From positions 1-42,994 of the forward strand of contig JANQGG010000051.1 in the NCBI GenBank assembly GCA_028277445.1: a stretch of 42,994 nt of DNA, read 5' to 3'. The notes beneath the pieces were generated by a model. That model ran no database searches, was not told where the DNA came from, and saw only the letters and a program-made list of their open reading frames with translations. Source of the DNA: Chloroherpetonaceae bacterium (GTDB lineage Bacteria > Bacteroidota > Chlorobiia > Chlorobiales > Chloroherpetonaceae). Below are positions 10,475 through 16,423 of the stretch, piece after piece. Every line of letters begins with the position of its first letter. The first letter of the stretch is position 1. Position numbers and translations under genes: made by a program.

Positions 10475-12319
10475 TTATTGATCTAATTTTCCAATGGCAA
10501 TGATTTTCTTGGCAATATCAGTATTATCGTAATAGCCATTGAATTTTTCCTGACCTTTACCTAAAGCAAGAACTGGAACAGGAACACCTGTGTGTGAGTA
10601 GCTCGTCCAGGCAATACCAGCTTTTTCGTTTAAGATATGAGTTACAGTTACAGTAAATTCGTCATAGTAACCATAAATCCTCTTTTGTTCTTCTGTGTAA
10701 GTATCGGAATCTACTCCTGCCATACTGCTATTAAAAGCATTTTCTAAACGAGTTGAATCATACATCGTTAATGCCAACTCAGAGTGTTTGCTATCATCGC
10801 CAAGGCCAAAGTAAGTTTCAACACTATCTAAAGCCATTGCAAAAGTTACATTTCCAGCATCTTTCCAATCAGATACTTTAGCTGAGAAATGAATATAAGA
10901 TAATGACTGATGCTTTAAGGTTTCGAACCAGGTTGCATAACCATTGTTAGCAAAACCAAGTGTCATACCGCCACATTCGTGGTCACCAGTAACAACGATC
11001 AAGGTTTCATCTTTATGATCATTGTAGAATTTGATAGCTTCGCCAATCGCTTTATCAAAAGCAATCATGTCATAAACGGCAGCAACTGCATCGTTGGCGT
11101 GGCAAGCCCAGTCAACTTTACCACCTTCTACCATCATGAAGAAGCCAGCTTCGTTATCTAATAATTCAATACCTTTTTTAGTAAACTCAGCTAATGTGAT
11201 ATTATCGTTTTCGCCATACTCATCTACATCCAGTTGATATGGAAGCGCGCTACCATCAGATGTATTGGTTCTGAATTTTTCAAGAGTAGCAATAATCTTG
11301 TCATCACCACTTGAAAGAGCCTCAAAAGCAGTACGAGATTCAACATAAGTGTAGCCATTTGTAGTAGCAGCATTTAAGAAGAGGTTGATGTCTTCAGCTT
11401 GCCCTTCACCATCATATTTGCCCCAACGAACGCCGCCGCCGGCAAAGTAGTTGAAACCACTTATTGCTAAATCCTGACCGATTGAGTAGTAGTTGTTTCG
11501 GCTATCTGTATGAGCATAGAAACAAGCCGGCGTAGCGTGGTCTATACTTACACTTGAAACGATACCCACTTTCATACCTTTATCTCGAGCCATTTCTGCC
11601 ATGGTTTTATGATCAAGCGTGTGGCTGCTATTCATAGAAATGGTACCGATGGAGGTTTTGTATCCAGTTGCTAAAGCTGTTGCAGATGCAGCTGAACCGG
11701 TGATATAACGATCTTCGGCATGAGTGGTTTGCATACCTGTTACAGGAAAATCATTCATGTTGAGCTTTCCAAGTGAAGGTGTTTCACTCATAGTGCCAAA
11801 ACCGCTAACGCCCAAAGCAGCTTCAGTAGCATTGATTTGAGGCATAGCCATACCATCGCCAATGAAGAAGAAAATGTATTTAGGTGCGTTTAATTCAAGA
11901 TCATCCCATTCAATGACTACTTCAACGCCGCCTTGCGTTAATTTTAAAATAATAGCTGAGTTTGTAACTTTACCGGCTTCAACAGTTACCTGGCTGGAAC
12001 CGGTTGCTACAACACTAGTGCCTTCGTATGCTGTAACTGTAACAGTGTAATCACCTGGCTCAAGTTTTGAGAATTCACCTACAGTTTTTTCAACAACAAG
12101 TAGTAATGAATCCGAATAGCCAGATTTTTCAAGTTTTACTACGACTTTTGTAACAGACATTGATTCTAATACCTGCTGACTGGCACTAAAATCAAACTGA
12201 ACTGAAGCGTTGTTTTCAGGATCAGGCGTGGTACTTTTATCGTCATCATCACAGCCAACGGTGACGAATCCAATAAAAGATATCAATACCGCCATAAGTA
12301 GCAGGGACAGTTTTTTCAT
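10475..12319 (-). CDS. Lipoprotein alkaline phosphatase with N-terminal beta domain
   Basis: A 614-residue alkaline phosphatase of the PhoA family. Residues 1-22 form a lipoprotein signal with Cys23 followed by four Asp, a pattern like Bacteroidota surface-export signals. About 36-138 is a small beta-rich domain. The catalytic domain follows: Asp155 in IGDGMAMPQ, nucleophile Ser209 in TGSAASATALATG, SIDHATPACFYAH, MVEGGKVDWACHAND and TGDHECGGMTLG. Near the C-terminus is YSHTGVPVPVLALG, supplying the last zinc-ligand His. This is the usual PhoA order. The start has AGGAG at a good distance. It presumably releases phosphate from organic esters outside the cell. It is transcribed after its permuted paralogue. 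Confidence 0.93.
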   Translation of the reverse strand: MKKLSLLLMAVLISFIGFVTVGCDDDDKSTTPDPENNASVQFDFSASQQVLESMSVTKVVVKLEKSGYSDSLLLVVEKTVGEFSKLEPGDYTVTVTAYEGTSVVATGSSQVTVEAGKVTNSAIILKLTQGGVEVVIEWDDLELNAPKYIFFFIGDGMAMPQINATEAALGVSGFGTMSETPSLGKLNMNDFPVTGMQTTHAEDRYITGSAASATALATGYKTSIGTISMNSSHTLDHKTMAEMARDKGMKVGIVSSVSIDHATPACFYAHTDSRNNYYSIGQDLAISGFNYFAGGGVRWGKYDGEGQAEDINLFLNAATTNGYTYVESRTAFEALSSGDDKIIATLEKFRTNTSDGSALPYQLDVDEYGENDNITLAEFTKKGIELLDNEAGFFMMVEGGKVDWACHANDAVAAVYDMIAFDKAIGEAIKFYNDHKDETLIVVTGDHECGGMTLGFANNGYATWFETLKHQSLSYIHFSAKVSDWKDAGNVTFAMALDSVETYFGLGDDSKHSELALTMYDSTRLENAFNSSMAGVDSDTYTEEQKRIYGYYDEFTVTVTHILNEKAGIAWTSYSHTGVPVPVLALGKGQEKFNGYYDNTDIAKKIIAIGKLDQ

Positions 12320-12493: not shown

Positions 12494-13996
12494 TTAGTTT
12501 ATCTTTTGAATGGATTTCCATGAATTGACTTTTTCGGTGAAAAGTTCAAAGGATAGTTTTTGATAGGCTAAAATTTCAAACGCGGTATTGTACTTTGTCG
12601 TTGCATGGCCTAATGAAAGTGCGCCGCACTCATGATCGCCGGTTGCCACAATCAACGTTTCTTTTGGATGGGATTGTTGAAATTGAAGCGCAACTTCTAT
12701 AGCTTCATCAAATGATATGACATCGTGAATAGCTGATGAAGCATCATTAGCATGACATGCCCAGTCAATTTTTCCACCTTCTACCATTACAAAAAAACCA
12801 TTTTGATGATCTAGTAAGCGAATAGCTTCGGATGTGAACTCAGCTAATGAAATATCAGTTTCTTTGCGATCAATGCTGTAAGCCAATGCGCCATCAGCAT
12901 CGTATGATGAATATGCCCAGCATTTTTGGCCGGGTTTTGTATTATTTAACTCAGCTTTCGTATTAGCTATTTTATATCCGGCTTCTTTCATTACGTCTAA
13001 AATGCTTTTTGCATCACCTTCAGGATCGGAAGATTTTGAGCGTTCAAACTCACCTCGGGCAAAACCGCCACCAAAGAAATCAAATCCACTGGTTGCCATT
13101 TGCAACGCAATATTGTTGTAATTATCTCTTGAAGGTTCATGAGCATAAAAGCATGCCGGGGTAGCGTGATCAATGCTAACGCTGCTAATAATGCCAACTT
13201 TCATTCCCTTTGATTTGGCCATTTCAGCAATGGTTTCATAGTTGCCAGAATGATCAGGCGTTTTGGAAATAGTCCCGATTGACGTTTTAAAACCGGTTGC
13301 TAAAGCTGTACCGGCAGCAGCCGAACCTGTTATATATCGATTATAAGCCTGCGTTGTTGCCATGCCGCATACAGGCAGTTGAGTTAACTGAAGATTTTTT
13401 TTAACGCGGTTAGAACTGTCTTGTTCATTTATATGACTTAAAAAAGCTTCGGTTGCTTGAATTTGAGGCCATGCCATACCATCGCCAATAAATAGAAAGA
13501 TATATTTGGGGCGCGATGGGGAAGCTTTGGAGCTCTGAAATTTGGCGATTTTAATAATTTTTTTTGCGATGTCCGTGTTGTCGTAAAATCCATGAAACGC
13601 ATCTTCGCCAACGCCTTTTGCAAAAACCGCGACCGGAATACCGGTATGTGAGTAGCTACCCCATGAAAGACCAGCTTTAAGATTAAGCAAATGAGTTATG
13701 GCGACTGTGAAGGGTTCGTATTTGCCATAAAGCCATTTATTCTCTTCATCTGTCTGATTATTTTTCCCCGACATGCTTTTTAAAAAGGCTTCATAGAGAA
13801 TTAGGGAATCATGAGCTGAGAGCTTTAAGCTAGCGTGAAGATCACTGTTTCCAAGACCAAAATACGCTTTAGCGCTATCCAATGCGTCGTGAAAAGAAAC
13901 GCTGGAGCGGCTTTCCAATGAAATATCTTCTTTCGGACGACAAGCGCCCATCAATAACATGATCGTTAAAAACAAACCAATGGTAGAAAACTTCAT
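12494..13996 (-). CDS. Circularly permuted lipoprotein alkaline phosphatase
   Basis: A 500-residue paralogue of the neighbouring phosphatase with its segments in a different order. After a lipoprotein signal (Cys19 in LMGACR), residues ~33-153 (from FHDALDSAKAYFGLGN through SYSHTGIPVAV with His117, to YDNTDIAKKI) correspond to the C-terminal end of the other enzyme. The body follows: Asp172 in IGDGMAWPQ, Ser225 in TGSAAAGTALATG, SIDHATPACFYAHEPS, VEGGKIDWACHAND and TGDHECGALSLG. It stops at KVNSWKSIQKIN, exactly where the normal enzyme would continue into the moved segment. No catalytic motif is lost or duplicated. It lacks the beta domain. See findings. Confidence 0.92.
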   Translation of the reverse strand: MKFSTIGLFLTIMLLMGACRPKEDISLESRSSVSFHDALDSAKAYFGLGNSDLHASLKLSAHDSLILYEAFLKSMSGKNNQTDEENKWLYGKYEPFTVAITHLLNLKAGLSWGSYSHTGIPVAVFAKGVGEDAFHGFYDNTDIAKKIIKIAKFQSSKASPSRPKYIFLFIGDGMAWPQIQATEAFLSHINEQDSSNRVKKNLQLTQLPVCGMATTQAYNRYITGSAAAGTALATGFKTSIGTISKTPDHSGNYETIAEMAKSKGMKVGIISSVSIDHATPACFYAHEPSRDNYNNIALQMATSGFDFFGGGFARGEFERSKSSDPEGDAKSILDVMKEAGYKIANTKAELNNTKPGQKCWAYSSYDADGALAYSIDRKETDISLAEFTSEAIRLLDHQNGFFVMVEGGKIDWACHANDASSAIHDVISFDEAIEVALQFQQSHPKETLIVATGDHECGALSLGHATTKYNTAFEILAYQKLSFELFTEKVNSWKSIQKIN

Positions 13997-14169: not shown

Positions 14170-15681
14170 CTAAATTTGTTCTTGCAAAAGTTTATTGCAT
14201 TGAGCGGCTTGAACATATGCCTGGAGTTGGAATGAAAACGTGGTTCCAACCTTGAGCACACTTTCAACTTCCAATTTGGAATGATGAAGTTGCAGGATTT
14301 TATGGGCAATCGTCAAGCCAAGACCAGCGCCGGATTCGGCTTTTGAACGGACGTTATCGCCTTGATAAAATCGGTCGAAGATATGTTTAAGTTCTTCTTC
14401 GGGAATACCTTTGCCGGTATCTCGAACACTGATTTTCAAGTGATAGTCATCGGATTTATCGACGATAACATCAACGGCACCGCCAAAGTCGGTGTGCTCA
14501 AACGCATTGCTGATTAAATTTTGCAACACACGGTCGATAAGCGCTAAATCGGCAAATACAAACGGCGGGGTTTCAGGAAAATGCGCATTCAAAGTTATGC
14601 CCGATGCAACAGCTTGTGGATTAAACTTTAATAAAATATCCTGAAGCAATTCCGTAATGGAGAAAGGCTCAGGGTTCATTTTAACCTGTTTGGCTTCCAG
14701 TTTCGATAAATCCAGCAGTTGATTAACCAAATGATTGAGGGTGCGAGTATTCTTTAAAATGGTATTGAAATACTTATTTTTTTCCTTATCACTCAGCAAA
14801 TGTTTTTTCAGCAGAATCATTTCAACGTAACCTTCAATTGATGCTAACGGGGTTCGAAGATCATGCGAAATGTTTGCGATAAACTCCTGAAGTAATTTTT
14901 CATTATCCCTTAGTTGAGCTACCGATTTTTCAATTTTTTCAGCCATGGCATTAAAGGCATTGGCCAGCTCTTTTAACTCGCTGCTGGATGAAACATGAAT
15001 TCGCTTAGGCGTGGTAAAATCAGAGTGTTTTAACTCGTCAATAAAATGAACAAAACGCCACAAATCTTTCGTTAGAAGCGCAATTAGGATTAGTCCAACA
15101 ATCAAGGCGACAGCAAGAGCTATAATGACGGATATTACCAGAATTTTTAAAGCATAACTTTGTTTGATCATTTCCTCTGTGGATGCAGCATTAACACACC
15201 CAAGAGTTACATACAGGTAAGCAAGAGGCGTTTCTTCGCCGGTCTTTAAAAGGTGAGCTGAAAAAATACGCTTACTGCTTGGATCTGTTGGGTCATCACC
15301 ATATTGCGGGTAGACTTTATCACCGCGAAGAAACGCCTCAATTTCTGAGGTCGATATTTTAAAATTACGTACTTCACAGCAAGAGGAGTGCGTGAGCACT
15401 TCACCGGTTACATCAAGCAAAAACAGGCCGATCGTGGGATTGAATTGTTTAGCCTGGTCGAAAACGCGTTGAACCTCCTGTTCATCTATATAGTTGGTGG
15501 CATTATTAATGGTTATTTGTTTGGCAATCTTTGAGGCTAAATCTCCATGAAGTTTTTGGGTAGCTTCAGCCAAATAGAGATTCGTAGATTGCGTGGCTGT
15601 AAAAAAATAACCCAGGCTTGTTATAATTAAAATTATTACAAAGAGAACCGATAACTTAAATTGCAGGCTTCTGAATATCAT
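14170..15681 (-). CDS. Sensor histidine kinase
   Basis: A 503-residue membrane sensor kinase. Transmembrane segments lie at about 8-28 and 180-203, enclosing a ~150-residue periplasmic domain with an adjacent Cys pair (SSCCEV, 99-104) and a third Cys at 162. A HAMP segment follows (about 204-255), then HisKA with the phosphoacceptor His273 in NISHDLRTPLASIEGY. The HATPase domain has NLISNAFEHT, DTGKGIPEEE, FDRFYQGD and GAGLGLTIA. It is co-transcribed behind the response regulator (31-bp gap). The signal is unknown; the cysteines could sense metal or redox state (inference). The adjacent phosphatase genes hint at phosphate, but no PAS domain of the PhoR type is present. Confidence 0.92.
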   Translation of the reverse strand: MIFRSLQFKLSVLFVIILIITSLGYFFTATQSTNLYLAEATQKLHGDLASKIAKQITINNATNYIDEQEVQRVFDQAKQFNPTIGLFLLDVTGEVLTHSSCCEVRNFKISTSEIEAFLRGDKVYPQYGDDPTDPSSKRIFSAHLLKTGEETPLAYLYVTLGCVNAASTEEMIKQSYALKILVISVIIALAVALIVGLILIALLTKDLWRFVHFIDELKHSDFTTPKRIHVSSSSELKELANAFNAMAEKIEKSVAQLRDNEKLLQEFIANISHDLRTPLASIEGYVEMILLKKHLLSDKEKNKYFNTILKNTRTLNHLVNQLLDLSKLEAKQVKMNPEPFSITELLQDILLKFNPQAVASGITLNAHFPETPPFVFADLALIDRVLQNLISNAFEHTDFGGAVDVIVDKSDDYHLKISVRDTGKGIPEEELKHIFDRFYQGDNVRSKAESGAGLGLTIAHKILQLHHSKLEVESVLKVGTTFSFQLQAYVQAAQCNKLLQEQI

Positions 15682-15712
15682 AGTTTGTGATCCAAAATGT
15701 GTTTATAAATTC

Positions 15713-16423
15713 TTAACTCATTACATCGTTAAACTTATACCCTACTCCCCAAACAGTTAAAATATAAGTAGGTTTGCTGGGATTTTCTTCAATTTTCATT
15801 CTAAGCCGGTTAATGTGGGAATTAACAGTGTGCTCATACCCTGTAAAAGATGACCCCCAAATAATATTTAGTAAATCGTTTCTGGTATATGTTCGTCCGG
15901 GATTTTGCATAAAAAGTGATAGCAAATCAAATTCCTTGGATGTTATTTCTACAGGCAAATTTTTATAGGACAGCTTGTGTTGTTTTATATCCAATTTCAA
16001 GTCGCCAAACACGAAGATATCCTTAGCGTTTAAAAAGCTGGGAACTTTTTCGGGGCTGGCACGCCGCATATTGGCTTTAACCCGCGCTAAAAGTTCACGA
16101 ATTCCAAATGGTTTGGTGATGTAATCATCTGCGCCGGCATTGAGGCAATTGACTTTATCTTCTTCATCGGAACGGGAAGTCAGCATAATAATCGGGCAGT
16201 GGATGTTGCTTTCTCGTAAGCGGTGGCATACTTCGAAACCATTTGCTTTTGGTAACATAATATCCAGAACAATAAGGTCGTAGACACGAGAGCGTGCGTA
16301 TTCCAAGCCTGAAAGGCCATCCATTGCCAAATCACTTACGCAATCTATATCCTTAAGATTGATCTGAATAAGATTGGCAATATCCAGATCATCTTCAATG
16401 ATCAGAACACGCTTTTCCATCAT
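15713..16423 (-). CDS. OmpR/PhoB-family response regulator
   Basis: A 236-residue two-domain regulator. The receiver domain (1-~120) has the acidic pair at 10-12, the phosphoacceptor Asp54 in LIVLDIMLP, a Thr/Ser in MLTSRS and Lys in TKPFG. The C-terminal winged-helix domain (~140-232) shows EFDLLSLFMQNPGRTYTRNDLL and a TVNSHINRLRMKIE recognition helix. It pairs with the histidine kinase encoded next in the operon. Its targets cannot be read from sequence; the downstream phosphatases are candidates only by position. Confidence 0.93.
   Translation of the reverse strand: MMEKRVLIIEDDLDIANLIQINLKDIDCVSDLAMDGLSGLEYARSRVYDLIVLDIMLPKANGFEVCHRLRESNIHCPIIMLTSRSDEEDKVNCLNAGADDYITKPFGIRELLARVKANMRRASPEKVPSFLNAKDIFVFGDLKLDIKQHKLSYKNLPVEITSKEFDLLSLFMQNPGRTYTRNDLLNIIWGSSFTGYEHTVNSHINRLRMKIEENPSKPTYILTVWGVGYKFNDVMS

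Follow-up and report, generated by a model that had tools for sequence, protein, structure and literature searches.

PhoA is among the best-studied metalloenzymes, and the question raised by this locus was whether a PhoA-family alkaline phosphatase in which the usual C-terminal block stands ahead of the core is a true natural circular permutant and, if so, where it came from. The window, i.e., the whole analysed stretch of 42,994 nucleotides, carries two neighbouring alkaline phosphatase genes on the minus strand, the permuted gene coming first and that of a normal-order enzyme following after 174 bases. The features are as follows:

12494..13996, minus strand: permuted alkaline phosphatase gene, 500 aa
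13940..13996, minus strand: lipoprotein signal peptide, residues 1–19, identified from sequence (lipobox-like LMGAC, Cys19)
13538..13894, minus strand: moved block, C-terminal in normal enzymes, residues 35–153, containing the Zn1 ligand His117
13508..13537, minus strand: new linker between the former C-terminal helix and the former first strand, residues 154–163, about 10–13 residues
12509..13507, minus strand: core, residues 164–496, with D172, S225 (nucleophile), H277, T279, R290, E406, D411, H415, D454 and H455
10475..12319, minus strand: neighbouring normal-order alkaline phosphatase lipoprotein, 614 aa, consisting of an N-terminal extension, core and block

The PF00245 profile matched the permutant in two swapped stretches, with profile positions 374–422 corresponding to window positions 13687–13541 and profile positions 2–325 to 13507–12587; the normal neighbour gave one unbroken match (profile 2–422). 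The score of the permutant was 231.5 bits against a curated cut-off of 24.4, which places it in the family, but the linear order of the profile (core first, block with the Zn1 ligand last) is not followed; because the block precedes the core, the protein was filed as a permuted variant of PF00245 and not as an ordinary member. With the equivalog model for E. coli-type PhoA (NF007810), it scored 102.5 bits, below the cut-off of 540 bits. In a BLASTP comparison, the permutant aligned with its neighbour in two pieces (residues 163–494 to 146–486, 51% identity, and residues 32–153 to 490–612, 54% identity), whereas against a head-to-tail doubled neighbour it gave a single collinear match (residues 32–494, 51% identity over 480 columns, 426 bits, E-value = 2.6e-144). 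BLASTP detected no repeated segment within the permutant, and the gaps flanking it on either side contained no trace of a core or a block. Given the swapped Pfam stretches, the match to the doubled neighbour and the lack of a repeat or remnant, the block-first order is real, single-copy and far beyond chance. As in natural circular permutation, both segments are homologous to one protein, become collinear once rotated and occur once each. Thus, the earlier note was right that the protein is circularly permuted relative to the order of its neighbour and that the block is present once; it had also placed the block straight after a lipoprotein signal, and of this the signal was recovered, but the block starts about 15 residues past the lipoprotein cysteine. 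The N-terminal extension of the normal enzyme (about 110 aa, window positions 11900–12210), which is predicted to be mostly beta and has a weak DUF4397 match, has no counterpart in the permutant.

The catalytic residues were mapped using the E. coli PhoA sequence taken from the K-12 genome as a reference. Each of the 11 metal and catalytic positions in PhoA had an aligned counterpart in the permutant, in agreement with the proposal that no catalytic motif had been lost: D51, S102, T155, R166, E322, D327 and H331 correspond to D172, S225, T279, R290, E406, D411 and H415, whereas D369, H370 and H412 correspond to D454, H455 and H117, the last of these in the moved block. Asp153 of PhoA is replaced by His277, a histidine being present at this position in 73 of the 110 aligned rows, and Lys328 is replaced by Trp412, the usual state among the relatives. 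The segment between the Zn2 ligands and the Zn1 histidine comprises 41 residues in E. coli versus about 130 in permutant-type enzymes, and the break lies within this variable segment, between D454 and H455 on one side and H117 on the other. According to the predicted structures, the break corresponds to the four-residue loop 489–492 of the paralogue, located between helices 475–488 and 493–504, which have become the last helix (483–496) and the first block helix (35–46) of the permutant, respectively.

Phylogenetic analysis of the core separated the permuted gene from its neighbour. The permutants of the window and of a second genus (see below) clustered with enzymes of Chlorobiaceae plus two further ones (100/99), and the Chloroherpeton-type enzymes of normal order clustered with three from Bacteroidota (99/98). 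Forcing the permutants together with the normal paralogues cost 104 log units (p-AU 2.2e-52), and a grouping that also admitted the three Bacteroidota rows was still disfavoured (p 0.0036). The closest core lineage is thus that of the normal-order alkaline phosphatases of Chlorobiaceae (about 49–57% identity; block 35–47%), which differ from the permutant in having the normal order. Since the core tree places the permutants with these enzymes, the neighbour is an older paralogue and was rejected as the parent; the idea of a permutant of its neighbour therefore holds for the topology and fails for descent by rearrangement of the neighbour gene. The block tree (128 columns) is too short to confirm a history shared with the core, and it rejected neither the core-like grouping (p-AU 0.15) nor the grouping of the permutant with the neighbour (p-AU 0.44).

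The permuted gene plausibly arose when a Chlorobiales-type phosphatase was duplicated in tandem and the outer parts of the pair were then lost. No fused tandem intermediate or duplication remnant was found. Another route, either gene fission followed by fusion in reverse order or the joining of two different tandem paralogues, is less likely. In its favour, the core sits firmly with Chlorobiaceae, whereas the block, in its short alignment, is nearest by path length to the type of the neighbour, and a block-only gene exists in one Chlorobiaceae genome. However, the grouping of the block with Chlorobiaceae and related enzymes was not rejected (p-AU 0.15), and the block-only frame (L025:1510-1809, genome G059), in which the core is gone, lies next to a ParA-type gene and resembles a remnant. 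A mosaic in which recombining tandem phosphatases joined a block from the lineage of the neighbour to a core from a Chlorobiaceae-type lineage, with the new anchor position on the variable face giving the enzyme a surface role of its own, is less probable still. Two tandem alkaline phosphatase genes, an array of the type that could yield a permutant, were observed in a Synergistaceae genome (L124:2057-4419).

Whether the rearranged chain could fold was addressed by structure prediction, as the earlier note had advised. The input alignment for AlphaFold2 contained the block and core pieces of the relatives as separate rows, together with query repeats, and the resulting model was confident over both block and core (pTM 0.87, mean pLDDT 85.5), with pLDDT below 50 only in the signal region and in one loop (318–326) and mostly 74–97 in the moved block; a high pTM bears only indirectly on how the block packs against the active site. 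The predicted helices and strands of the block correspond one-for-one to those of the normal paralogue, in the same order and of the same length. In a Foldseek comparison with the structure 3a52, the TM-score to the target was 0.65 for the permutant versus 0.89 for the paralogue, which was matched over its whole fold; the method is bound to chain order and cannot follow a permutation, so the overlay of the permutant covers mainly the core, and such a difference would be expected for a chain in which roughly one quarter of the fold has changed its place.

Taken together, the gene product is most probably (roughly 0.87) an exported, lipid-anchored PhoA-family alkaline phosphatase that is a natural circular permutant. 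Its chain begins in the loop between the two helices of the variable Zn2–Zn1 segment, the former C-terminal helix is tied through the new linker to the former first strand, and the block is predicted to fold back on the core and so place His117 at the Zn1 site. Judging from the conserved residues, the resulting two-zinc, one-magnesium phosphomonoesterase would work by the PhoA mechanism. Instead of being attached at the first core strand, the lipid anchor would sit on the variable face of the enzyme, and the orientation of the active site relative to the membrane should therefore change. The opposing explanation, a decaying duplicate whose translation product fails to fold as an enzyme, draws on the presence of a normal-order paralogue in both genomes, owing to which a loss would be tolerated; it is nevertheless very improbable, since the catalytic residues are all kept in both permutants, both frames are open with lipoprotein-type signals, and the AlphaFold2 model is confident.

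A histidine kinase and an OmpR-type response regulator are encoded upstream, on the strand of the phosphatases (window positions 14170–16423). Models of the PhoR and PhoB type are among their best curated matches, PhoB being at the top of the list for the regulator; as all of these matches are under cut-off, they do no more than hint at phosphate control. The permutant of the second genus has neither gene nearby. Scans of promoters and terminators gave no more matches than in shuffled sequence.

The same permuted arrangement was detected in another genus of Chloroherpetonaceae, in a genome that is probably that of Chloroherpeton thalassium (ATCC 35110), the only species of the family in culture (PMC9318685). 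The protein of 515 aa has 60% identity to the permutant of the window, a lipobox-like signal (VWGC) and a linker of different sequence. In this genome, assembled as a single contig of 3,293,456 bases, the locus of the normal enzyme shares synteny with the window on one flank, the one carrying glyA, pyk and the YibE/F gene, whereas the permutant lies elsewhere, 1.5 Mb from the normal paralogue. Consequently, although the window comes from a 70-contig draft and two similar genes stand side by side in it, a permuted order produced by misjoined contigs, which the earlier note had named as grounds for refutation, was rejected as practically impossible, the same order occurring within the single 3.29-Mb contig of the other genus, in a gene with an intact frame in the window and linkers that differ between the genera.

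Among the 98 genomes of the order Chlorobiales, the permutant was present in two, namely, both sampled genomes of the family, and in no other. At least 80 loci were found in named relatives from many phyla; among the 80 listed, the block is last in 77 and was not detectable in 3. A first scan of named genomes with a single permutant protein as the query gave no matches. The scan with a two-row alignment as the query was pattern-limited and missed the second genus, and it therefore bounds the spread only loosely. In plasmid records, no place covered 80% of either permuted protein.

The survey of genomes yielded a second permuted family in addition to the permutant of the second genus, so that the window permutant is not a one-off. 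This family was first met as two weak rows of a phylum search (116–481 and 117–482) and is present at full length in five genomes from four genera of one Bacteroidota family (P0003; L150:991-2493 in genome G076, L156, L157, L158 and L159), the other four proteins being 44–89% identical to the first. When 391 genomes of the class were sampled evenly, it was restricted to members of that family. Its proteins consist of a signal, a short block with WGTGNHTSSPVPLGAVGP, a GDG core, TADHETGG and C-terminal variable helices, and its profile aligned with a Vibrio alkaline phosphatase in swapped order (105–490 to 5–408 and 46–100 to 447–501). Like the window permutant, these proteins have an export signal and the Zn1-histidine block ahead of the GDG core; unlike it, they retain the variable helices at the C-terminus, form a separate lineage and resemble the Vibrio enzyme. 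The breaks also differ: the variable helices follow the break in the first family and precede it in the second. On the core, a common origin of the two families was rejected (p-AU 3.2e-5, a figure not to be over-read in view of the long stem of the second family), suggesting that the two permutation events were independent.

Compared with PhoA-type alkaline phosphatases (PF00245; E. coli PhoA, Shewanella 3a52, TAB5 2iuc), the permutant shares a homologous core and block, the metal and catalytic positions and an export signal, whereas its block and core have changed places, the lipid anchor is on the block, and the identity of the core to solved structures is about 30%. For E. coli alkaline phosphatase, engineered circular permutants with high specific activity have been reported (Kojima, Ayabe and Ueda 2005, cited in PMC2395249), which, going by the title of the 2005 paper, indicates that the family tolerates permutation with activity; those are laboratory constructs, whereas the Chloroherpetonaceae permutant evolved and was conserved in nature. 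A 2022 study of Chloroherpetonaceae listed, for an 'alkaline phosphatase family protein', an insertion of 5 residues specific to the family (PMC9318685), and permutation of that protein is not mentioned in the parts of the article consulted. In line with the earlier note, no natural permutant of the PhoA family was found in the literature searched, the coverage of which was limited, so this absence is no proof of novelty.

As the permutant demonstrates, profile and structure searches that depend on chain order may split or under-score permuted enzymes. That two independent events broke the same variable segment, at its opposite ends, suggests that new termini are naturally tolerated there. Together with the sister enzymes of Chlorobiaceae, the two paralogues that one cell carries, permuted and normal, constitute a natural experiment on how chain order bears on folding, zinc binding and membrane orientation.
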